64,000 nt of DNA from Cyanobium usitatum str. Tous (GTDB taxonomy: Bacteria; Cyanobacteriota; Cyanobacteriia; PCC-6307; Cyanobiaceae): NCBI RefSeq assembly GCF_003011885.1, contig NZ_PXXO01000005.1:1-64000 (forward strand). Reading direction: 5' to 3'. Below, piece after piece: positions 15,659 through 24,030 of this stretch. Positions within the stretch are counted from its first letter, which is position 1. Every line of letters starts with the position of its first letter. The notes below the pieces were generated by a model, which saw only the letters and a list, made by a program, of their open reading frames with translations, ran no database searches and was not told the origin of the DNA. A program made the position numbers and the translations under genes.

Positions 15659-16066
15659 ATGCCGGATCCTTCCCCAAGGAAAGAGGAAAGGCACATCGTG
15701 CCCTCAATAAGCATGACAATTCAGATCGACTTTTATGTCGATCCGATTTCGTTTATTGGTCGCCTTTGGGATGTGAGCTCCTCTGGTGCCTGCCTGCTGT
15801 TTCCCATACGCGAGCCTGTAGTGCCTGGTTTGGTCGGCACCCTCACGATTCAACACCCCATCTTTGGCGATCCGATCCGGCTGCGGGCCAGTTCCCTCTG
15901 GGTCGATCGGCTGGAGTCAGCCTCCTATGTGGGGGTACGGTTTCTTGAAACCGTCGACTTCAACACCACCTTTTTGAAAGTGCTGATGCGCCGCAGCGGT
16001 GGCTATACGCCCGTGGGTAGTTTTGGCGATCTTCTCTCTGGCACGGCATTCGGCAGCTTCACTTGA
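15659..16066 (+). CDS. PilZ domain protein (putative c-di-GMP receptor)
   Basis: 135 aa, a single PilZ domain. The two c-di-GMP binding signatures are present: RKEER (RxxxR) near residue 8 and DVSSSG (D/NxSxxG) near residue 41, followed by the beta-barrel (LTIQHP...RLRASSLWVDR...YVGVRF). Such stand-alone domains couple cyclic-di-GMP to motility, adhesion or polysaccharide production. The next gene overlaps by 4 nt (TTGA) and encodes an exported protein, so the two are probably co-translated. The ATG at 15659 is used; the TTG just before it is less likely. Confidence 0.78.
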   Translation: MPDPSPRKEERHIVPSISMTIQIDFYVDPISFIGRLWDVSSSGACLLFPIREPVVPGLVGTLTIQHPIFGDPIRLRASSLWVDRLESASYVGVRFLETVDFNTTFLKVLMRRSGGYTPVGSFGDLLSGTAFGSFT

Positions 16067-16656
16067 GCAAGCAGCACCTTCGCCCAGCCCTGCTGATGAT
16101 CCTTGGGCTGGGCTGGCTGCTTGCCAACTCTGCCCAGGCCCTGCAGCGGCCGGTGGAGCCAGTAGCGGTCTGCGTGGTGACCCCCCGGGTGGAGCCGGTG
16201 ACAGAAGGGGATGCCATTGGCCTGGTGCCCACACCCATGCCCCTGCTCGTAGTGGTCGAACCTCTGCTGGAGCTCCGCATCGAGCGCCAGGGCCTGCTGG
16301 TTTGGCAGCAGCTTGCACCTGCCGGGCGCCCCTTCCGCGCACCCCTGGCCTGGCCCCTGGCCCCGATTGCCCCCGGCGAGGTGGTGCTGCTGCGTCTGAG
16401 ACCTGAGCAGGCGGCAGAGGGCAGCTTTGCCCAGGTGCAACTAGTGGGTGCGGACGCCGAGCGGATGGCCCGCACCGCGGCCCTGATCCTCTCCCTAGGC
16501 CAGAGCCCCCCTGCCTGGCTGGCAGCGATCGAAACGGCCCTGGAAGCTGGAGATGTGTCGCTGGCCTGGGCCCTGCTGTTTGAACCCCAGCTCCCCGATG
16601 CAGGCGATTTAGCCGCCCTGCGCAACGAGGTGGTGCGCAGGGGCTGCGGCGATTGA
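16063..16656 (+). CDS. Exported protein of unknown function, coupled to the PilZ gene
   Basis: 197 aa from a TTG at 16063 that overlaps the PilZ stop codon (TTGA). The N-terminus has a basic start (SKQHLRPALL), a hydrophobic core and NSAQA-L, a good Sec signal peptide. An ATG at 16096 is the alternative start but would lose the basic residues. The mature part is Pro/Leu-rich (PVEPVAVCVVTPRVEPV, PTPMPLLVVVEPLLEL) with a helical C-terminus. No family recognised. Overlap with the PilZ gene suggests a shared surface-related role. Confidence 0.6.
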   Translation: MSKQHLRPALLMILGLGWLLANSAQALQRPVEPVAVCVVTPRVEPVTEGDAIGLVPTPMPLLVVVEPLLELRIERQGLLVWQQLAPAGRPFRAPLAWPLAPIAPGEVVLLRLRPEQAAEGSFAQVQLVGADAERMARTAALILSLGQSPPAWLAAIETALEAGDVSLAWALLFEPQLPDAGDLAALRNEVVRRGCGD

Positions 16657-16677
16657 CCTGCGACCACAATGCAAGAG

Positions 16678-16691
16678 GGTACAGGTGTACT
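16678..16691 (+). promoter_or_regulatory. LexA (SOS) box upstream of the umuD-like gene
   Basis: GGTAC-AGGT-GTACT fits the GTAC-N4-GTAC core and, as I recall it, the published cyanobacterial LexA motif (RGTACNNNDGTWCB). It lies 36 nt upstream of the ATG at 16727, where a repressor would cover the promoter. The box overlaps an in-frame GTG at 16685, which argues for the downstream start of the gene. Confidence 0.75.
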
Positions 16692-16726
16692 GTTTTGCGC
16701 TAGTGTGTCGGTCTTCGGGGATTGCC

Positions 16727-17248
16727 ATGGCGAGCGATCTGATCTGGCTTGGTCCCTTGCAGCCAGCGCATCACGACCTCGAGCCCCTGCTCCTGCCCCT
16801 GGCCGGCGAAACCGTGGCCGCAGGCTTTCCCAGCCCTGCCGATGACTACATCGAGGCAACAATCGATCTAAATGGAGCCCTGATTCCGCGACCGAGCTCC
16901 ACCTTTTTGATGCGGGTAGACGGCGATGCCATGCGCGGAGAGGGCATTCATCACGGCGATCTATTAGTGGTCGACCGCAGTGTGGGTCCCCGTTCTGGCT
17001 CCATCGTGGTCGCCGTGAACGAGGGGCGCTTTCTGCTGCGGCGACTGGAGGGAACACCTCCCCATTGGCGCCTGGTGGCCAGCGATGCCACTAGCCCCGC
17101 CATTGCCTTGCAAGGCGGCGATCCCGACCTGCTGATCTGGGGCGTGGTGATCCATGCGGTACATCACCTCTGGAAGCCATCGCCGCAAGCGCGAGTCCGA
17201 GCAAGCGCTTTTAACCGTTCACCAGAAGCCTTTGGAATAAAGCCATAG
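16727..17248 (+). CDS. umuD: UmuD-like S24 peptidase homologue lacking the Ser/Lys dyad
   Basis: 173 aa, similar to UmuD, the SOS-induced subunit of error-prone polymerase V, normally activated by RecA-stimulated self-cleavage. The cleavage region is conserved (VAAGFPSPADDYIE, Ala32-Gly33), as is the S24 fold (FLMRVDGDAM, GDLLVVDRS, WGVVIHAVH). However, the catalytic serine of GDSM is Ala68 (GDAM, codon GCC) and the catalytic lysine (VKKL in E. coli) is Arg105 (LLRRL). Both catalytic residues are therefore changed and self-cleavage is not expected. No umuC is adjacent. A LexA box precedes it. The start at 16727 avoids overlap with that box. Confidence 0.85.
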   Translation: MASDLIWLGPLQPAHHDLEPLLLPLAGETVAAGFPSPADDYIEATIDLNGALIPRPSSTFLMRVDGDAMRGEGIHHGDLLVVDRSVGPRSGSIVVAVNEGRFLLRRLEGTPPHWRLVASDATSPAIALQGGDPDLLIWGVVIHAVHHLWKPSPQARVRASAFNRSPEAFGIKP

Positions 17249-17332
17249 GCCTAGCAATCCCATTGGCACAAACACTGCGCCAAGGATCTGCAACTTGACG
17301 GTGCGCGGAGATGGCTGATTCTTACGGGGCAT
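17219..17332 (-). CDS. Small single-helix membrane protein
   Basis: 37 aa (MPRKNQPSPRTVKLQI...). A basic N-terminus with Pro/Arg/Lys is followed by one hydrophobic helix (LGAVFVPMGLLGLWLY) and a short SKGFW end, a layout typical of small thylakoid or plasma-membrane proteins of cyanobacteria. I do not recognise a photosystem subunit. Its 3' end overlaps the end of the convergent umuD-like gene by 30 nt. Support rests on amino-acid pattern alone. Confidence 0.5.
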   Translation of the reverse strand: MPRKNQPSPRTVKLQILGAVFVPMGLLGLWLYSKGFW

Positions 17333-17337
17333 GGAGG

Positions 17338-17661
17338 TCAGGCTGAAGGGGAGAACAAAATCGGGCGATAGGTGGGCCGAGCGGCGGGCGAGAGGCTCCA
17401 CTTCACCCGGCAGGTGAAGGTGGCGTATTCACCTTTGATGGCAGTTGAGAGCCGCATGGCCGTAGCGGTTGCATTGGCTGGCATGCGGTATTGGGCCTGA
17501 TTGCAGGAGTCCACTTCAGAGACGTTCGACCTGTATTCAACGGTGCCACTGGTGGGCGCGGCCTTGGCGTCTGTTTGGCCTGCCTGGGCTGCGCAGGGTG
17601 CAAGCAGGGAAGCAGTGGTACAAAGGGCCAAAAGACAGGGAAATGCAGCAATGCGGCGCAT
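17338..17661 (-). CDS. Exported small protein of unknown function
   Basis: 107 aa with a clear signal peptide (MRRIAAFPCLLALCTTASLL then APCAAQA). The mature part contains two cysteines (DSCNQAQYRMP and TFTCRVKW) that could form a periplasmic disulfide, and ends in a basic/Pro-rich tail. No family recognised. The downstream gene begins 5 nt after its stop, so the two may be co-transcribed. Confidence 0.55.
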   Translation of the reverse strand: MRRIAAFPCLLALCTTASLLAPCAAQAGQTDAKAAPTSGTVEYRSNVSEVDSCNQAQYRMPANATATAMRLSTAIKGEYATFTCRVKWSLSPAARPTYRPILFSPSA

Positions 17662-18096
17662 GGCTAAGCGTCAAAGTCTTCCTGTAATAGCCGAAAAGAC
17701 GCAGCCGCGCCTAGTCGAGCAGCCAGTGCGGCAACCTGGCCCAGTAACGCGCTTAGGGCGGTTCTGATCCATTGATGCACTAAAAAAGATTTGGAGTGCT
17801 CTCCGGTAGCCGTCGCCATCGGCAGGCAATTGCGGCTTCCCGTGGCCACCTGGTCGGTGCGAAAGGTGGCCGATCCTCTGCAACCCGAGCTCGCGATCGG
17901 CGCTAAGTCGGCAGGAAAGGTTGCGGTATGGCGAAACGGCCAAGCAACTGCGCCACCTAGTCGATCAACTCGAAATCCTGATGCTGTTGGAGCAACTCTA
18001 ATCCGTGGGTATGTGGTGTGCAGCGTTTAATCAGCTCGAAGATCGCGAGGTACTTGATCTTCTGGTGGCGGCAACACCCGATGCGCTCAACTGAAA
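17662..18096. other. Gene-poor stretch with open-frame remnants
   Basis: On the plus strand one frame is open from about 17810 to the TAA at 17999-18001 without a good start. Its end is coding-like (ETAKQLRHLVDQLEILMLLE). In the same frame, after that stop, 18011-18094 encodes 27 aa from an ATG (MWCAAFNQLEDREVLDLLVA). On the minus strand 17957-18100 is a 47-codon GTG ORF overlapping the antitoxin-like gene stop. These overlap each other, so at most one strand is real. I read the stretch as decayed or accessory DNA. Confidence 0.35.
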
Positions 18097-18100
18097 TCAC
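17957..18100 (-). CDS. Possible short ORF translationally coupled to the RHH gene
   Basis: A 47-codon GTG-started frame whose first bases overlap the RHH stop codon (GTGA), the classic arrangement of toxin-antitoxin and other two-gene operons. The peptide is Leu/Ile/His-rich (KYLAIFELIKRCTPHTHGLE). It matches no toxin family I know and is shorter than PIN, RelE or MazF toxins, so it may be a chance frame or a truncated remnant. Confidence 0.25.
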   Translation of the reverse strand: MISVERIGCCRHQKIKYLAIFELIKRCTPHTHGLELLQQHQDFELID

Positions 18101-18258
18101 TGCTTGCCTGTGACCTCGAGATCGTGAGCACCCTTTTGCACAAGGTAGGAATTAATTGCCTCTTTTAAGACGGCACCAAGTTTCTTGCCCTCGAGAATGG
18201 TTAAAAGTTTTAAAGCTCGATGCTCCTCTACGGAGAGCTCAACGGTAATTCTTGGCAT
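18097..18258 (-). CDS. Ribbon-helix-helix (CopG/ParD-like) DNA-binding protein
   Basis: 53 aa. The sequence begins with a beta strand (MPRITVEL), then helix SVEEHRALKLLTILEGKK, a turn with GAVLKEAINSYLVQKGA as the second helix, the RHH_1 layout of antitoxins and small plasmid or phage repressors. A genuine coding frame is supported by the domain pattern. Its base composition is visibly lower in GC than its neighbours, with many A/T third positions, suggesting recent acquisition. No intact toxin gene is next to it; only a 47-codon coupled ORF (17957-18100). It probably dimerises and autoregulates. Confidence 0.65.
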   Translation of the reverse strand: MPRITVELSVEEHRALKLLTILEGKKLGAVLKEAINSYLVQKGAHDLEVTGKQ

Positions 18259-18668
18259 GACTGTGAAGGAACCTGAGCTGATGTGACAAATCTATGCCAA
18301 TACTAGTGGAGGATGTGCAATCGGATATCAACACCTAAGCGTCAACGCTTCACCACAGGATTGTGAGATAATGCACTGGCCCAAGGGTTGGATTGGTGAA
18401 TTAGTGATTGAGAGCTAAGGCTAATTTTGCAAAAGCGTCCCGGTGTCCCAGAAGCGTCGCAGCATTCCAGGTTGCTAGGCCGTGCGGCGGCCACCTCCCC
18501 CGTCAGGTCAGTGCGGCCAGCTGGTCGAAAGTTGGTTTCGTTAAGGCTGGAGTTCTAGGAATAAATAAATGTCTTCAGGGCTTATCGGCCTTGCCAGCCA
18601 ATGCAAAATACAAAGACTAAAAGGTTGCGAAAAAGACAAACCGGCCAGCTATTCAAACAGGCATTCCT
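18259..18668. other. Gene-free accessory spacer
   Basis: No ORF with credible composition; a GTG frame at 18408-18620 (+) looks like noise. It contains AT-rich patches (around 18290-18310 and 18545-18625) and a small palindrome AGCGT-CA-ACGCT near 18340, and probably the promoter of the RHH gene. I see no tRNA, terminal repeats or target-site duplication that would mark an element boundary. Confidence 0.4.
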
Positions 18669-18936
18669 TCAGTGATGTTGGCGCCACCAGTGCCAGCTTT
18701 CAATATTGATAAACAACCCAAGCAGGGTCATCACCGCCATCAGCACGATCTGATCAAGGCGTGTATCTGGCACCAAACAGCAGCGGCAAGGCTCCCAGTG
18801 GCACTTGGCTGTTGATCTCGGGTGGCTGCCCGTGGAATAAGGGCATCAAGCCCAAATCCACGTGGAACAGCATGGCCAGCAACCAGGCAATCCAGAGAGT
18901 GATCAACCGCTGGGCATGATTTGTAGTGGAGCGCAT
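18669..18936 (-). pseudogene. Frameshifted small membrane protein
   Basis: The minus frame from the ATG at 18936 reads MRSTTNHAQRLITLWIAWLL... with a transmembrane helix and a Pro/Leu-rich loop up to LPLLFG, then hits a stop. Skipping one base near 18770 restores a frame with a second hydrophobic helix (VLMAVMTLLGLFINI) and the end ESWHWWRQHH, stopping at 18669-18671. Both halves are coherent, so a single-base indel broke an approximately 90-aa two-helix membrane protein. It lies downstream of the decayed rhodanese gene on the same strand. Confidence 0.65.
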
Positions 18937-18974
18937 GCATCCATCCAGGTGTTATGGGCAAGCGCCTGCTGCCA

Positions 18975-19420
18975 TCAAATCGAAACCCGGTTCCAGGGCA
19001 TCAAGGCCAGCAGGCGGGCCATGCCACAAAAACCACTGATGCCAGCAAACACCAGGCCGGCTCCCACAAACCAGCTGAGCAGAATCCATGCCGGCGCCAC
19101 CCAGCTGCCGAGGCCCAGGCCGAGCAGCACCAAAGAGCCAGCGGCGATCTGAACCTGGCGCATCAGCGGCAGGGGGGCGTTGTTGAGCCTGCGCAGGGGC
19201 AATCCAGCCTGCTGCCAGCTGGGGATGCCGCCTTCTAGATCGGCCTGGGCACTGCGGCGACCGCTGTGGCATACCAGTACCAGGGCACATTGACGCTGCC
19301 TTCGATGTGCCCGCCGGCGAATTCCATTGCCTCGCGCACGTCGATCACGCTGACCCGCTTTTCAGCCAGCTGCCGGGCTAGTTCCTGGGCATTGAGACGG
19401 GTATCGGGGTCTGGTGTCAT
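18975..19420 (-). pseudogene. Decayed rhodanese-DUF2892 (YgaP-like) gene
   Basis: The frame from 19420 encodes the start of a rhodanese domain ([20 protein letters not shown] then VNVP) and then shifts. The +1 frame continues with [14 protein letters not shown], containing the active-site Cys loop, followed directly by [19 protein letters not shown] and a DUF2892 double-helix membrane domain ([17 protein letters not shown] ... [14 protein letters not shown]) to the stop at 18975. About 20 residues are missing between VNVP and LVLVC with a frameshift, and a second in-frame gap lies after RSAQA. Intact homologues combine sulfurtransferase and membrane domains. This copy cannot make the full protein. 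Confidence 0.75.
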
Positions 19421-19438
19421 GACTGATAAGGAGGTTGA

Positions 19439-20602
19439 TCAGGTGGAAGCGACGCCTTGCAGCGGGTAGCCCTCATCCGCCCAGCGGGCCAGGCCGCCGT
19501 GGAGGTTTGCCACCTGGCTGAGGCCGGCTTTAAGCAACTGCTGGGTAGCCAGGGCCGAGCGGCTGCCGGAGTGGCAGACCACCACCACCGGTTGATTGAC
19601 GGGAAGTTCGGAGATGCGACCTTCCAGTTCCGGCAGGGGAATCAGCAGGCTGTCCGCCACCCGACCGTCGGGGCCGCCATATTCCTCAGCCGAACGCACG
19701 TCCAGCAAGGTGAGGCCATCACGGTGGGACGCCACCCAGGCGGGGGGAAGTTCGGGCAGGCCCGCATAGCTGCGTTGCAATGGCGCCCAACATGGGTTTG
19801 CAGCAGGGCTGGTGACGCCCTGATCCATGGGCTTGCCAGAGCGCATGTTGCCCGGTAGGGCTTCGGCGATCCTGTGGGGGTGGGGCAACTTCATGGACTC
19901 CATGTGACCAACGAAATCCCTTTCGGTGGCCATACCGCCCAGGCGGGAGTTGAAGGCTTTTTCTTCAACGACCGAGCTGACCGTGCGGCCCTCGTAGTCG
20001 TGCCCTGGATAGAGCAAGCAGGAGTCGGGCAGGCTGAAAAGTTGCTGGGTAATCGAGGCCCAGAGGGTATGGGGGTTGCCCTGCTGAAAGTCACAGCGAC
20101 CGCAGCCCCGCACCAGCAAGGCGTCACCACTGAATGCCATCGACTGATCGTCGAGCACAAAACTGAGGCAGCTATTGGTATGACCTGGGGTGCTGCGCAC
20201 CTCGAGCCAACGAACACCAAAGGACAGCCGATCCCCGTGCTGCAGGGGCATGGTCACGTTTTTCGCCTTAGCGGCTGCAGCCAGGCCAATTGCACAGCCA
20301 GTGGCCTCGTGCAGCAGCCAGCTGCCGGTGACGTGGTCGGCGTGGGCATGGGTATCGAGGGAGGCCACCAGCTCGAGCCCCAGCTCACGGAGTAGGGCAA
20401 GATCCCGGCCATGGCGCTCAAACACCGAATCGATGATCACCGCCTGGCGACTGGAAACATCGCCTAGTAAGTAGGTGAAGGTGCCGGTCTGGGCATCAAA
20501 AAGCTGGCGGAAGAGCAGGGATCCCCCTCCAGCCGCTGCCCGCAGGGAGATCGGCGTAAACGGGGCGACAACCATCGCGGCATTGCAGCTTGTTATGACC
20601 AT
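19439..20602 (-). CDS. Persulfide dioxygenase-rhodanese fusion
   Basis: 387 aa from the ATG at 20602 (longer upstream frame overlaps the ArsR gene). The N-terminal metallo-beta-lactamase fold has THAHADHVTGS (HxHxDH), TPGHTNSC, SGDALLVRGCGRCDFQ and YPGHDYEGRTVSSV, the ETHE1-type persulfide dioxygenase set with mononuclear iron ligands. The C-terminal rhodanese domain has LLDVRSAEEY and the active-site loop VVCHSGSRSA (catalytic Cys). Such fusions oxidise glutathione persulfide to sulfite and pass sulfane sulfur to make thiosulfate during sulfide detoxification. It is divergent from an ArsR-family gene across 75 nt, suggesting control by that protein. Confidence 0.85.
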   Translation of the reverse strand: MVITSCNAAMVVAPFTPISLRAAAGGGSLLFRQLFDAQTGTFTYLLGDVSSRQAVIIDSVFERHGRDLALLRELGLELVASLDTHAHADHVTGSWLLHEATGCAIGLAAAAKAKNVTMPLQHGDRLSFGVRWLEVRSTPGHTNSCLSFVLDDQSMAFSGDALLVRGCGRCDFQQGNPHTLWASITQQLFSLPDSCLLYPGHDYEGRTVSSVVEEKAFNSRLGGMATERDFVGHMESMKLPHPHRIAEALPGNMRSGKPMDQGVTSPAANPCWAPLQRSYAGLPELPPAWVASHRDGLTLLDVRSAEEYGGPDGRVADSLLIPLPELEGRISELPVNQPVVVVCHSGSRSALATQQLLKAGLSQVANLHGGLARWADEGYPLQGVAST

Positions 20603-20649
20603 AGCCGCATAAAGGCGTCGCGTCCGGGGTCGCTCGGGGGAATGCGGCT

Positions 20650-20669
20650 TGCGACATAGCTGCGACATA
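20650..20669 (+). promoter_or_regulatory. 11-bp-spaced direct repeat, candidate ArsR operator
   Basis: TGCGACATA occurs twice (20650-20658 and 20661-20669), exactly 11 bp apart, so both copies face the same side of the helix. A TTATG...CATAA inverted repeat lies at 20593-20612. All sit in the short divergent spacer between the ArsR-family gene and the persulfide dioxygenase gene, the expected place for the operator. Confidence 0.4.
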
Positions 20670-20677
20670 ATTAATAG

Positions 20678-21016
20678 ATGGCTCATTCCAGCTCCATGCC
20701 GTCTCCCCAGTTGCTGGAGGAGTACTGCCAGTTTTTCCGTTTGTTGAGTGAGCCGGCGCGTCTCCAGTTGATTTGTCAGCTCAGGGCAGGGCCCATGGAT
20801 GTGGCAGCACTGATCGAAGCCACTGGCTTCTCCCAATCCCACATCAGCCGCCAGCTCGGTCAACTGCAGCGGGCTGGCCTAGTGCGCTGCGAGCGCGATG
20901 GGGTGCGCACGATCTGGAGCGCCGAAGGCGCCTTGGTAGATGAGCTCTGCTCCCTTGTCCAGACCCGACTCAAGCGACGCCTGGAGAACCAGTTAGCCCA
21001 ACTGCAATCAGCCTGA
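20678..21016 (+). CDS. ArsR/SmtB-family transcriptional regulator (possible persulfide sensor)
   Basis: 112 aa winged-helix repressor: LLSEPARLQLICQL, then the recognition helix GFSQSHISRQLGQLQRAGLV and the wing CERDGVRTIWS. A Cys sits in helix alpha2 (LICQL), where BigR/SqrR persulfide sensors have their first reactive Cys. A second Cys lies in the last helix (ELCSLV), about one turn before the BigR position. The canonical SmtB/ArsR metal motif ELCVCD is absent. With the divergent persulfide dioxygenase gene, I infer a reactive-sulfur-responsive repressor. Metal sensing cannot be excluded. Confidence 0.8.
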   Translation: MAHSSSMPSPQLLEEYCQFFRLLSEPARLQLICQLRAGPMDVAALIEATGFSQSHISRQLGQLQRAGLVRCERDGVRTIWSAEGALVDELCSLVQTRLKRRLENQLAQLQSA

Positions 21017-21063
21017 GCGCGCCGGGCTTGAAGCCGGAAGAATGGCCCTAGCAAAAGTTCCCC

Positions 21064-22620
21064 ATGGCGCAGCCAAAATCGCCCCTAGATCAGCTGCAGG
21101 AGCATCTGCGCCAGAGCCAGCTGCTGGGCTCAATCAGCAGTGCCCTCTACTACGACCAGAACACGGTGATGCCGGCGGCCGGTGCCGAATGGCGTGGCGA
21201 CCAACTAGCCCTGTTGGCCAGCCAGCTGCACGAACGCCAGAGCAGCCCTGCTTACGCCGATCTGGTCGAGGCGGCGGAAGCCGAGCTGCAAGCCAGCACT
21301 CCGGCGGCGGTGCGCCGCAACTTGCAGCTACTGCGGCTTGAGCTAAATCGCCAGCGCTGCCTAGATCCCCAGCTTGTAGCCCAGATCGCCCAAGCCCAGT
21401 CGCGCGGCAATGCCATCTGGCAGGAGGCAAGGCGCCGCAGCGACTTCAGCATCTTTGCTCCGGCACTGGAAAGCCTGATCGGCCTACGCCGCGAACAAGC
21501 GACCCAACTTGCCGCCGCTGAAGTTCAACACCGCAGCCCCTGGGAAATCCTGGCCCAGCCGTTTGAGCCCGACGTCAGCAAAGAACGGCTGCAGCAGCTG
21601 TTTGCCCCACTGCAGGACGAACTGCCCGTCCTGCTCCAACAGGCAGCAGCAACCCAGGAATCCCCCCTGCCAGAGCTACCCGAAGCCCTGCAGGAAAATC
21701 TCTGCACCGAGCTGCTCAACAGCTGGGGCTACGACCCGGCCTACTGCCAACGCTCCCGCTCGGCCCATCCCTTCTCCTGCACCGTGGGCCCCCAGGACTT
21801 CCGCATCACCACCAGGGTGGTGCCGGATCAGCCCCTCTCGGCCTTCCTTGCCACCGCCCATGAATGGGGCCACTCCCTATATGAACAGGGCCTGCCCCGC
21901 ACGGGCAACCACTACTTTCCCTGGCCCCTGGGTGAGGCCACCTCGATGGGGGTGCACGAGTCGCAGTCGCTGTTCTGGGAATGCCGCGTGGGCCGCAGCC
22001 GCGCCTTCGCCGAGCGCTGGCATCCGCGCTTCTGCACTGGCTTAGGCAGCGGTGGTGGCAGTGGCGTTGGCAGTGGCAGTGATCCCTGGGGCGGTGCCCT
22101 CGGCTTCTGGCGAGGGCTCAATCCCCTGCGGCCCGGCCTGATTCGGGTGGAAGCCGACGAGCTCAGCTACTGCTTACACATCGTGCTGCGCTTTGAGCTG
22201 GAGCTTGCCCTGCTCGAGCAGGAGCTGCCGGTGGCGGAGCTCCCAGATTTATGGAACCGCCGCATGGGCGAGCTGCTGGGCCGTACCCCTTCAAGCGATT
22301 CGGAGGGATGTCTGCAAGATATCCACTGGGCAGAAGGCCTGTTTGGCTATTTCCCCAGCTACGCCCTGGGCCATCTGATCAGCGCCCAACTCGCGGAAAC
22401 CATGGAGCAGGAGCTTGGCGGCCCAGGTGCCATCGAGGCCGCGATCGCTGCTGGTATGGAGAGCAGCCTGCGGGACTGGCTGGCCAGCAGGGTTTATCCC
22501 CTGGGCCGCAGTGTCAATGCGGAAGAGCTGGTGGAACAGGTGAGTGGCCAGAGCCTCAGCGCAGCTGCTTTCCTTCGCTATCTGCGCAACAAGCTGGAGC
22601 GCCTGCAGGCAGATACTTAG
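21064..22620 (+). CDS. M32 family carboxypeptidase
   Basis: 518 aa zinc metallocarboxypeptidase of the Taq/Pfu type, mostly helical. The zinc motif is HEWGH (H266-H270) followed by SLYEQGLPR, with the downstream Glu ligand in GVHESQSLFWE, and further family blocks IRVEADELSYCLHI and WAEGLFGYFPSYALG. It removes C-terminal residues from peptides in the cytosol. A Gly/Ser-rich insertion (GSGGGSGVGSGSD, around residues 328-340) is unusual inside the domain. ATG at 21064. It follows the ArsR gene by 47 nt. Confidence 0.92.
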   Translation: MAQPKSPLDQLQEHLRQSQLLGSISSALYYDQNTVMPAAGAEWRGDQLALLASQLHERQSSPAYADLVEAAEAELQASTPAAVRRNLQLLRLELNRQRCLDPQLVAQIAQAQSRGNAIWQEARRRSDFSIFAPALESLIGLRREQATQLAAAEVQHRSPWEILAQPFEPDVSKERLQQLFAPLQDELPVLLQQAAATQESPLPELPEALQENLCTELLNSWGYDPAYCQRSRSAHPFSCTVGPQDFRITTRVVPDQPLSAFLATAHEWGHSLYEQGLPRTGNHYFPWPLGEATSMGVHESQSLFWECRVGRSRAFAERWHPRFCTGLGSGGGSGVGSGSDPWGGALGFWRGLNPLRPGLIRVEADELSYCLHIVLRFELELALLEQELPVAELPDLWNRRMGELLGRTPSSDSEGCLQDIHWAEGLFGYFPSYALGHLISAQLAETMEQELGGPGAIEAAIAAGMESSLRDWLASRVYPLGRSVNAEELVEQVSGQSLSAAAFLRYLRNKLERLQADT

Positions 22621-22650
22621 GATGCCGCTCAGCCACTCAAATTCCGCTTC

Positions 22651-23238
22651 ATGGCGAACATCGACCACGCCCCGAGCCGCACGATGCTCAACCTGCTGCA
22701 CGTGCTGCCGGCCTTCGCTGATGAAGCAGAGCTGCGCTTGAACGCGATCGTGGAGTTGAACTCCATGACGATCAACAAGTACGAACTGATCACGGAGACA
22801 GGCCACCTCAAGCTGGATCGCGTCGGCTACTCGTCGCTGGCTTACCCCTTCGCCTACGGCTGTATCCCCCGCACTTGGGACGAGGACGGCGACCCCCTAG
22901 ATATTGAAATTGTCGGTGTCACCGAGCCCCTAGTGCCGGGATCGCTGGTGGAAGCTCGGATCATCGGCATCATGACCTTTGACGACGGCGGCGAGGTCGA
23001 CGACAAGGTGATCGCAGTATTGGCCGATGACAAGCGCATGGACCACATCACCAGTTTCACCCAGCTTGGTGAGCAGTGGGTCACGGAAACCCAGTACTAC
23101 TGGGAGCACTACAAAGACCTCAAAAAACCCGGCACCTGCAAGGTCAATGGCTTCTTGGAGCCAGCAGAAGCTGTGAGCATCATTAAGGAGTGCGAACGGC
23201 GCTATCTCCACATCATCGACTCCAAATTGGTTAACTAA
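22651..23238 (+). CDS. ppa: Inorganic pyrophosphatase
   Basis: Family I soluble Mg-dependent pyrophosphatase that hydrolyses PPi released by biosynthesis. 195 aa. The active-site signature DEDGDPLDIEI (DxDPxD) is present, with the preceding AYPFAYGCIPRTW and the later MTFDDGGEVDDKVIAV and HYKDLKKPG blocks. The ATG at 22651 gives a slightly long N-terminus (MANIDHAPSRTMLNLLHVLP) as in picocyanobacterial homologues. The L,D-transpeptidase gene follows after 14 nt. Confidence 0.94.
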   Translation: MANIDHAPSRTMLNLLHVLPAFADEAELRLNAIVELNSMTINKYELITETGHLKLDRVGYSSLAYPFAYGCIPRTWDEDGDPLDIEIVGVTEPLVPGSLVEARIIGIMTFDDGGEVDDKVIAVLADDKRMDHITSFTQLGEQWVTETQYYWEHYKDLKKPGTCKVNGFLEPAEAVSIIKECERRYLHIIDSKLVN

Positions 23239-23252
23239 GCGCCCTTATCACC

Positions 23253-23741
23253 ATGGCTGACTACCTCAAACCGCTCTGGATTGCCGCAGCAGCCCTAGCG
23301 ATGGCTCCGGCTTGGACCCCTGTCCAGGCCCAGAGCAACAGCCGGGAAATTGTGCTTCAGCTTGACAAGCGCACGATCAGCCTGCGTGAAGGCGGCAAGG
23401 TGCTGGGCAGTTGGCCAGTGGCGATTGGCGATCCCAGCACCCCCACACCAGTAGGGCGCTTCTCCGTGCAAAACAAGGTTGTTAATCCCAAATACCAGAG
23501 CACCAAAAGCGGCAAGATCAACGCCACCGTCGGACCAAATGGCCCCTTAGGCGATCGCTGGCTTGGATTCCAGAAAAGCGGACCCAACCAGTACGGCATC
23601 CATGGCACGCCAAATGCTTGGTCCTGGACGGTGACATCACGCGCAGCCGTGACCAATGGCTGCGTGCGCATGCTCCACGAGCATGTGCGCTCCTTATTTG
23701 ATCAGGTGGAAGTTGGTACGCCAGTAATCGTGCAGCGCTGA
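23253..23741 (+). CDS. Exported L,D-transpeptidase (YkuD domain)
   Basis: 162 aa with a signal peptide (LWIAAAALAMAPAWTPVQAQ) and one YkuD domain. Conserved features are the strand pattern (VLQLDKRTISLREGG), TPTPVGRFSV, the histidine motif YGIHGTP and the catalytic cysteine motif TNGCVRM. It forms 3-3 cross-links in peptidoglycan or attaches proteins to it, in the periplasm. The usual SHGC is TNGC here; the catalytic Cys and following Arg are kept. Downstream lies a strong 13-bp inverted repeat. Confidence 0.88.
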   Translation: MADYLKPLWIAAAALAMAPAWTPVQAQSNSREIVLQLDKRTISLREGGKVLGSWPVAIGDPSTPTPVGRFSVQNKVVNPKYQSTKSGKINATVGPNGPLGDRWLGFQKSGPNQYGIHGTPNAWSWTVTSRAAVTNGCVRMLHEHVRSLFDQVEVGTPVIVQR

Positions 23742-23771
23742 AGCCAGCCGATTGTCGGAAAATATTCTGGA

Positions 23772-23806
23772 GATAACCCCAGCTGCAGCTGAAAGCTGGG
23801 GTTATC
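23772..23806. repeat. Perfect 13-bp inverted repeat (hairpin)
   Basis: GATAACCCCAGCT (23772-23784) and AGCTGGGGTTATC (23794-23806) are perfect complements around a 9-nt loop. It begins 30 nt after the transpeptidase stop. There is no T-run on either side, so it is not a standard intrinsic terminator. It could be a factor-assisted terminator, an mRNA-end stabiliser or a binding site. Confidence 0.7.
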
Positions 23807-23856
23807 GACGTACCTTATAAGGCCAAAACAAGGCACGAGGCCTTTCGACTGCGTCT

Positions 23857-24030
23857 ATGTCTGCGGTTCCCCACTCCAATCATTCCTGCGAACCCCAAGT
23901 GAGCACCACCTTGAAGTGGGCCAGTGACGGCGAGCTTTCAGCCCTTGATTTAGAGCGGATACTGGCGAGGTTAAGTGCGGTTGATCCAGCAGCCCAGGAG
24001 CTCTTTAGCCAGCTGCAGACTCAATCCTGA
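23857..24030 (+). CDS. Small acidic-ended protein of unknown function
   Basis: 57 aa from the ATG at 23857 (MSAVPHSNHSCEPQVSTTLK). The second half is a regular amphipathic helix pair (DGELSALDLERILARLSAVD and [13 protein letters not shown]) with normal picocyanobacterial codon use, suggesting a real small helical protein. No family recognised. It overlaps the convergent ClC gene by 10 nt. Confidence 0.5.
   Translation: MSAVPHSNHSCEPQVSTTLKWASDGELSALDLERILARLSAVDPAAQELFSQLQTQS

Follow-up and report, generated by a model that had tools for sequence, protein, structure and literature searches.

An ArsR-family protein encoded divergently from a persulfide dioxygenase–rhodanese gene in Cyanobium usitatum: a probable reactive-sulfur repressor with a displaced helix-5 cysteine

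INTRODUCTION

BigR and SqrR are ArsR-family sensors that use a pair of cysteines, one in helix α2 and one in α5 (Cys42 and Cys108 in BigR, Cys41 and Cys107 in SqrR), and BigR is described as controlling a dioxygenase/TauE operon (PMC5823870, PMC9774590). For HlyU, a persulfide-bridged species of +62 Da is reported, and a published network places all known ArsR persulfide sensors in a single cluster with an α2/α5 pair and Rv0081 in another (PMC10509353). Knowledge of sulfide and persulfide sensing in cyanobacteria seems scant, with SuoR, acting on a sulfide:quinone reductase (SQR) gene pair (PMC4307280), and PerR in PCC 7002 as described cases. A search of titles and the starts of abstracts in the open-licence literature, with subscription papers outside its scope, turned up no paper on an ArsR protein that regulates a persulfide dioxygenase (PDO) in a cyanobacterium. 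Here we describe such a candidate in a 64,000-nucleotide stretch of Cyanobium usitatum str. Tous (contig NZ_PXXO01000005.1, positions 1 to 64,000; hereafter ‘the window’), in which an arsR gene is divergent from a gene for PRF, a protein with a PDO and a rhodanese domain.

RESULTS

The arsR–PRF locus

The main features of the locus, in window coordinates, are these:

20678..21016, plus strand: coding sequence of the predicted ArsR-family repressor, 112 residues (Pfam and NCBIfam matches, AlphaFold2 model, 86 orthologous loci)
19439..20575, minus strand: PRF, a PDO of metallo-β-lactamase fold plus a rhodanese domain, 378 residues from the ATG at 20575 (Pfam, BpPRF match)
20774..20776, plus strand: codon of Cys33, helix 2 (sequence and structure alignments)
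20948..20950, plus strand: codon of Cys91, helix 5 (invariance; offset from the structural pairing)
20594..20610, minus strand: candidate operator before PRF, ATGCGGCTATGGTCATA, an imperfect dyad TATG...CATA (spacer reading, consensus scan)
20642..20658, plus strand: candidate operator before arsR, ATGCGGCTTGCGACATA (spacer reading, consensus scan)

A first-pass annotation of the window had proposed both an ArsR-family open reading frame (ORF) and a divergent persulfide dioxygenase, and both identities hold. The 112-residue protein matches Pfam HTH_5 (2.3e-10) and lies above the cut-off of NCBIfam HTH_metalloreg. The product of the divergent gene contains the Pfam domains Lactamase_B and Rhodanese, and its best solved relative is BpPRF (5ve3; E 2.4e-117, residues 16–370). 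An ETHE1-type dioxygenase is followed by a C-terminal rhodanese domain in which the rhodanese-loop cysteine is kept in the BpPRF alignment, placing the protein in the PRF class. The spacer between the start codons used is 102 bp (20576–20677); the true start of PRF is uncertain because a second in-frame ATG exists at 20602, inside the PRF-side candidate operator.

Conservation of the ArsR protein and its cysteines

An ArsR ortholog (E ≤ 1e-20) is present in 74 of 201 genomes of the organism's taxonomic family, and all matches at this cut-off were fetched, giving 86 orthologous loci in stretches of ~4 kb or less per side, some ended by contig ends. Cys91 is a cysteine in every one of the 86 loci and Cys33 in 83; the exceptions are L104, which has Ser, and L085 and L086, which are broken or truncated. 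The window protein contains two more cysteines, Cys17 and Cys71, absent from the first-pass annotation and conserved in 8 and 74 loci, respectively. L104 (genome G081) is an intact natural Ser33 variant that belongs to one of only three ArsR-positive genomes lacking PRF. It keeps the arsR-side site.

In a quick tree of 125 ArsR sequences, 84 family sequences fall on one side of a branch with SH-aLRT 99, a hint from an alignment with few columns and long branches. A scan of viral contigs found no relative. Two bins titled Bifidobacterium breve and Chitinophagaceae (L124, L183) carry this cyanobacterial locus and are probably mislabelled or contaminated.

Predicted fold and structural pairing

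The AlphaFold2 model (43 aligned sequences; mean predicted local distance difference test score 89.8) consists of a helix-turn-helix, a wing and a long last helix (residues 85–111). Cys33 is predicted to lie within helix 26–37 and Cys91 within helix 85–111, in agreement with the earlier placement of one cysteine in helix 2 and another in the last helix. VIA-align superimposes model residues 4–101 on BigR 13–110 (3pqj; Z 12.9, root-mean-square deviation 2.2, 98 aligned) and residues 10–101 on SqrR 18–109 (6o8l; Z 13.2, deviation 1.9, 92 aligned). Foldseek and VIA-align do not discriminate between sensors of sulfur and of metal: chains of CzrA and SmtB rank with SqrR and BigR or above them. Both VIA-align pairings are gapless, because the aligned lengths equal the residue ranges, and Cys33 therefore corresponds to BigR 42 and SqrR 41, and Cys91 to BigR 100 and SqrR 99. 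The counterpart of BigR Cys108 and SqrR Cys107 is residue 99, a Lys in the window protein, Arg or Lys in 83 of the 86 loci and Cys in none. Cys91 is thus displaced eight residues (~2.2 turns) toward the N-terminus from that position, which rules out the displacement of one turn suggested previously.

The window protein shares with BigR and SqrR the α2 cysteine and the linkage to sulfur genes, and lacks their α5 cysteine. Membership of BigR is rejected on the absence of Cys at residue 99 and on a score of 37.0 bits against the NCBIfam equivalog cut-off of 155, a threshold that none of 14 control genomes passes either.

Metal-binding sites are also missing, as anticipated in the first-pass annotation. 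The α5 metal motif of SmtB and CzrA is given as DxHx10HxxE/H (PMC8960804). Its ligand positions are not kept among the 86 sequences: residue 84 is variable, residue 86 is Leu in 84, residue 97 is Arg in 79 and residue 100 is Gln in 72, and a metal box can be ruled out. Residues 34–70 contain no cysteine, so the protein has neither the α3 CxC box of canonical As(III)-responsive ArsR proteins nor a redox cysteine of the RexT type in α3.

Candidate operators in the spacer

Reading by eye and a 17-letter consensus scan identify two 17-bp imperfect dyads conserved in the spacers of many loci. The PRF-facing pattern is ATGCG-NN-TA-NNN-TCATA and the arsR-facing pattern is AATGC-N-T-NN-A-N-CG-N-CATA; the arsR-side site of the window departs from the stricter pattern, with 13 of 17 consensus letters. 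Relaxed patterns yield 98 distinct sites in 674,054 bp, a partly circular count because the motif was derived from the same upstream regions. Every one of these sites lies −35 to 330 bp upstream of an arsR (39 sites), PRF (56) or rhodanese-YgaP (3) gene, and the reversed patterns, used as a control, give no site in the same sequence. At this relaxed setting a site precedes arsR in 38 of the 86 loci and PRF in 56. In BigR/SqrR sensors the operator overlaps the −10 promoter element. Among 66 distinct sites here, most have a CATAAT that runs into the arsR-side dyad at its left end; the window site does not.

Relocated genes and whole-genome scans are free of the circularity that affects the motif count. 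PRF lies ~3.4–4 kb from arsR in six loci (L046, L061, L064, L065, L070 and L073), and the site is still found just before PRF. A scan of 16 genomes of the genus returns 15 exact matches (control, 0): 12 fall in arsR–PRF spacers (one, at L090, without PRF), two are located 22 bp before rhodanese-YgaP ORFs more than 20 kb away (L198, L200), and one (L210, genome G202) is tied to no gene. The only exact match to the PRF-side pattern in the window genome is the window site itself. If one mismatch is allowed, a single site is added, G000:C11:35032; none of the ORFs listed nearby was recognised as a sulfur gene. L090 comes from a close relative that has lost PRF at this locus and kept both sites; PRF is found at another ArsR locus of the same genome, L068.

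The arsR-side dyad overlaps a direct repeat:

20650..20669, plus strand: TGCGACATA in two copies at an 11-bp distance, the second apparently duplicated in this lineage only

The copies occupy 20650–20658 and 20661–20669, and the sequence occurs nowhere else on either strand of the window. The repeat had been proposed as the operator. It is real, but that role is not supported: CGACATA, found twice in the window, occurs once in the 60 bases before arsR in L089, L090, L091 and L118, whose ArsR proteins are 96–98% identical to that of the window, and because these four close relatives have a single half-site the repeat is not the conserved operator. This comparison accounts for the repeat as the arsR-side dyad together with a duplication of 11 bp.

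Gene neighbourhood and co-occurrence

In 54 of the 86 loci a PRF match, divergent from arsR, starts no more than 900 bp away, and at least one of PRF, rhodanese-YgaP, TauE and SQR lies within the fetched stretch in 70. Protein matches place TauE in 53 loci and SQR in 15. The SQR-like neighbour is a protein that we take to be sulfide:quinone reductase; above the Pfam cut-off it matches only the general family Pyr_redox_2. The usual place of PRF is taken by a divergent TauE gene in L039, L048 and L117 and by a rhodanese-YgaP gene in L058, L079 and L081. Across the 201 genomes, ArsR and PRF are both present in 71 and both absent in 123, with ArsR alone in three and PRF alone in four (Fisher p 2.5e-45, a value that ignores kinship). 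The ArsR-only genomes are G081, with the intact Ser33 protein, and G101 and G187, whose ORFs look N-terminally truncated. The SQR-like gene is convergent to the family ArsR copies L044, L063 and L112, and the same order is seen in the distant cyanobacteria L244, L249 and L272.

In the window, PRF is followed by the remains of a further gene:

18975..19420, minus strand: degraded rhodanese-YgaP_TM gene (three-frame reading of the minus strand; copies in relatives)

Its frame is broken and its rhodanese domain is partly missing. This is the next gene after PRF in many relatives, where near-full-length copies stand beside PRF, and an intact copy matches Pfam Rhodanese and YgaP-like_TM. The local operon looks reduced in a second respect, since no TauE, a gene present in 53 of the 86 loci, was detected in stretch L088 of the window (16000–24000). 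Downstream of arsR, on the same strand, is an M32 carboxypeptidase gene with no evident role in sulfur metabolism. The likely sulfide:quinone oxidoreductase of the window genome is encoded elsewhere (L216; G000:C1:183875-185092), beside an AraC-type regulator, and is 57% identical to the L112 copy.

A wider cyanobacterial family

The first-pass annotation did not extend to the family around the locus, which reaches across the cyanobacteria. The ArsR profile matches 225 of 291 genomes of the class, the organism's own family included (E ≤ 1e-15). We sampled 40 matches from the top of this list, chosen for spread over families; the neighbours of three (G247, G209 and G382) were known before sampling. 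Cys91 is kept in all 40, Cys33 in 37 and Cys95 in 33, whereas Cys71 and a cysteine at residue 99 occur in none. PDO, rhodanese-YgaP, TauE or SQR adjoin 22 of these loci. The cluster and arsR are divergent in 18 cases, with L245 counted among the 18 by hand, from coordinates.

A core TATRACYATA is found in 8 of 17 spacers flagged as divergent and in none of the 23 others (0.07 and 0.08 expected from shuffles), or in 8 of 18 and none of 22 once L245 is reassigned, figures that overstate the case because the pattern was picked after viewing the spacers. The core also matches the window site TATGACCATA, and it is absent from 10 of the 18 divergent spacers. L236 and similar loci (L222–L230) encode a relative with Cys33, Cys91 and Cys95 beside a gene with a CxxxCxxC motif that points to a radical SAM protein; the L236 stretch shows none of the four sulfur genes.

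These comparisons make Cys91 the constant, and its partner may be changeable. Cyanobacteria could then own a separate class of reactive-sulfur ArsR proteins outside BigR/SqrR, with an invariant helix-5 cysteine two turns earlier, a changing partner, a PDO–rhodanese–TauE regulon and, in part, a TATRACYATA operator. The partner of Cys91 would be Cys33 and/or Cys95 in most members and Cys33 (perhaps Cys71) in picocyanobacteria. We hold this joint proposal tentatively, at a little under even odds.

DISCUSSION

A candidate sulfur switch

The window protein is probably (a probability of roughly 0.7) an autoregulated repressor of sulfide and persulfide detoxification that comes off its operators on modification of Cys91 by reactive sulfur, Cys33 serving as partner. 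The sequence data support the fold, the missing metal sites, the conserved cysteines and sites, the gene pairing and the co-occurrence; they indicate that the locus is real, conserved and regulatory, and that it likely functions as a sulfur switch. DNA binding at both sites, repression, the identity of the inducer and a Cys33–Cys91 bridge are suggested by analogy with BigR, SqrR and HlyU.

In the proposed mechanism, the reduced ArsR dimer would occupy the two dyad operators of the arsR–PRF spacer and block both promoters. Sulfide oxidation would raise persulfide or polysulfide, Cys91 in helix 5 would become persulfidated, and a di- or polysulfide bridge would then join it to a second cysteine, most likely the helix-2 residue Cys33. 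Bridges across the dimer (Cys91–Cys91') or from Cys91 to Cys71 are the alternatives. The bridged dimer would leave the DNA, allowing PRF to be produced, and PRF would convert glutathione persulfide to sulfite and thiosulfate until the signal declines.

Several observations weigh against this interpretation. The second cysteine is not at the α5 position of BigR and SqrR, and the nearest solved relative is the hypoxia-linked Rv0081 (1.3e-10; 2.7e-14 with a profile) rather than BigR. None of the four sulfur genes is found in the fetched stretch at 16 of the 86 family loci and 18 of the 40 class loci, and the four PRF-positive genomes without ArsR lack an ortholog at the cut-off used. One promoter scan of the window spacer recognised nothing of the sigma-70 type, no PRF-side motif at one mismatch or fewer accompanies the SQR gene of the window genome, and the partial circularity of the 98-site count reduces its force. 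In the class-wide sample, L239 has Ser33 yet is divergent from PDO, rhodanese-YgaP and TauE, with Cys91 and Cys95 kept; Cys33 is therefore not always needed. With Rv0081 as its closest relative in the PDB and the canonical α5 cysteine missing, the window protein may work like BigR without being a member. The BigR-like persulfide switch of the first-pass annotation fails as a family assignment and survives as a functional idea: the cysteines are conserved, synteny and co-occurrence favour it, and the operators track the sulfur genes.

Other signals can be considered for the same locus. It is unlikely that the protein uses a dithiol to sense H2O2 or another oxidant, on RexT-like logic, and controls PRF incidentally. 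Cysteine pairs in ArsR proteins are able to sense H2O2, and RexT is itself cyanobacterial, but RexT uses Cys40/41 in α3 (PMC8960804), within the segment that is free of cysteine in the window protein. The neighbours found are sulfur genes, in a search limited to genes for PRF, rhodanese-YgaP, TauE, SQR and one transporter, with no thioredoxin query, and H2O2 is reported to give neither reaction nor DNA release with HlyU, which has an α2/α5 pair (PMC10509353). Arsenite or a soft metal could be bound through Cys33 and Cys91, joined by Cys95 in relatives, and most class-wide relatives have all three, a number that suffices for trigonal As(III); in the family, however, 81 of the 86 loci have Gln at residue 95, and the α5 metal ligands are absent. 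A second ArsR, with a CVC box, weakens arsenite sensing further: it is encoded in the window genome by a gene that overlaps the beginning of an ORF for a Pfam SBF transporter, which we take to be ACR3-like. Used as a query, this transporter matches one of 126 loci (L241). A coupling of arsenic and sulfide genes has precedent in SuoR of Synechocystis, described as controlling SQR and an arsenite transporter gene (PMC4307280), and arsR beside sqr in deep-branching Gloeomargaritales and Thermostichales bins has been read as arsenic defence (PMC11304991); for the window protein we regard arsenite or soft-metal sensing as quite unlikely.

An oxygen or hypoxia regulator resembling Rv0081, whose repression of PRF would have nothing to do with sensing sulfur, would fit the best match in the PDB. 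PDO needs O2. The network cluster of Rv0081 is tied to hypoxia in the published account (PMC10509353). Such a role leaves unexplained both the invariance of Cys91 and the confinement of the sites to arsR and sulfur genes, and we consider it very unlikely. That the protein is a true BigR member with the 11-bp direct repeat as its operator is highly improbable: the repeat is present and Cys33 matches BigR Cys42, but the second copy is missing in the four close relatives, the score is far below the BigR cut-off, and Cys is found at position 99 in none of the 86 family or 40 class sequences. The reactive-sulfur repressor provides a defined candidate for the regulator, together with two candidate operators at exact positions and a regulon that lends itself to tests in a picocyanobacterium in culture. 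A further suggestion is that another helix-5 position can serve the persulfide dithiol site of the ArsR fold; if true, the way in which such sensors are picked out from their sequences would change.

Comparison with known systems

The window protein resembles BigR of Xylella and Agrobacterium in its ArsR fold, the position of its α2 cysteine, the predicted control of a sulfurtransferase/dioxygenase and, in relatives, the presence of TauE beside it. It differs in its second cysteine, eight residues earlier in helix 5, and in the divergent arsR, the two dyad sites and its own score below the BigR cut-off. With SqrR of Rhodobacter, HlyU, YgaV and sHdrR/SoxR it shares the ArsR fold and the α2 cysteine of the α2/α5 persulfide sensors. 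The spacing of the pair is 58 residues, compared with the 66 residues given by the reported positions in SqrR (41/107) and HdsHdrR (50/116).

Among cyanobacterial proteins, SuoR, encoded on a plasmid of Synechocystis PCC 6803, is likewise an ArsR-like repressor of a sulfide-oxidising gene, suoS; compared by its description, it differs in acting on SQR and arsenite transport, the targets reported for it, rather than on PRF (PMC4307280). RexT of Nostoc PCC 7120 is a cyanobacterial redox-sensing ArsR dithiol protein as well, with vicinal cysteines in α3, an H2O2 signal and a thioredoxin target that set it apart from the window protein (PMC8960804). The divergent gene has its closest counterpart in BpPRF, which shares its domain order and aligns over nearly the full length.

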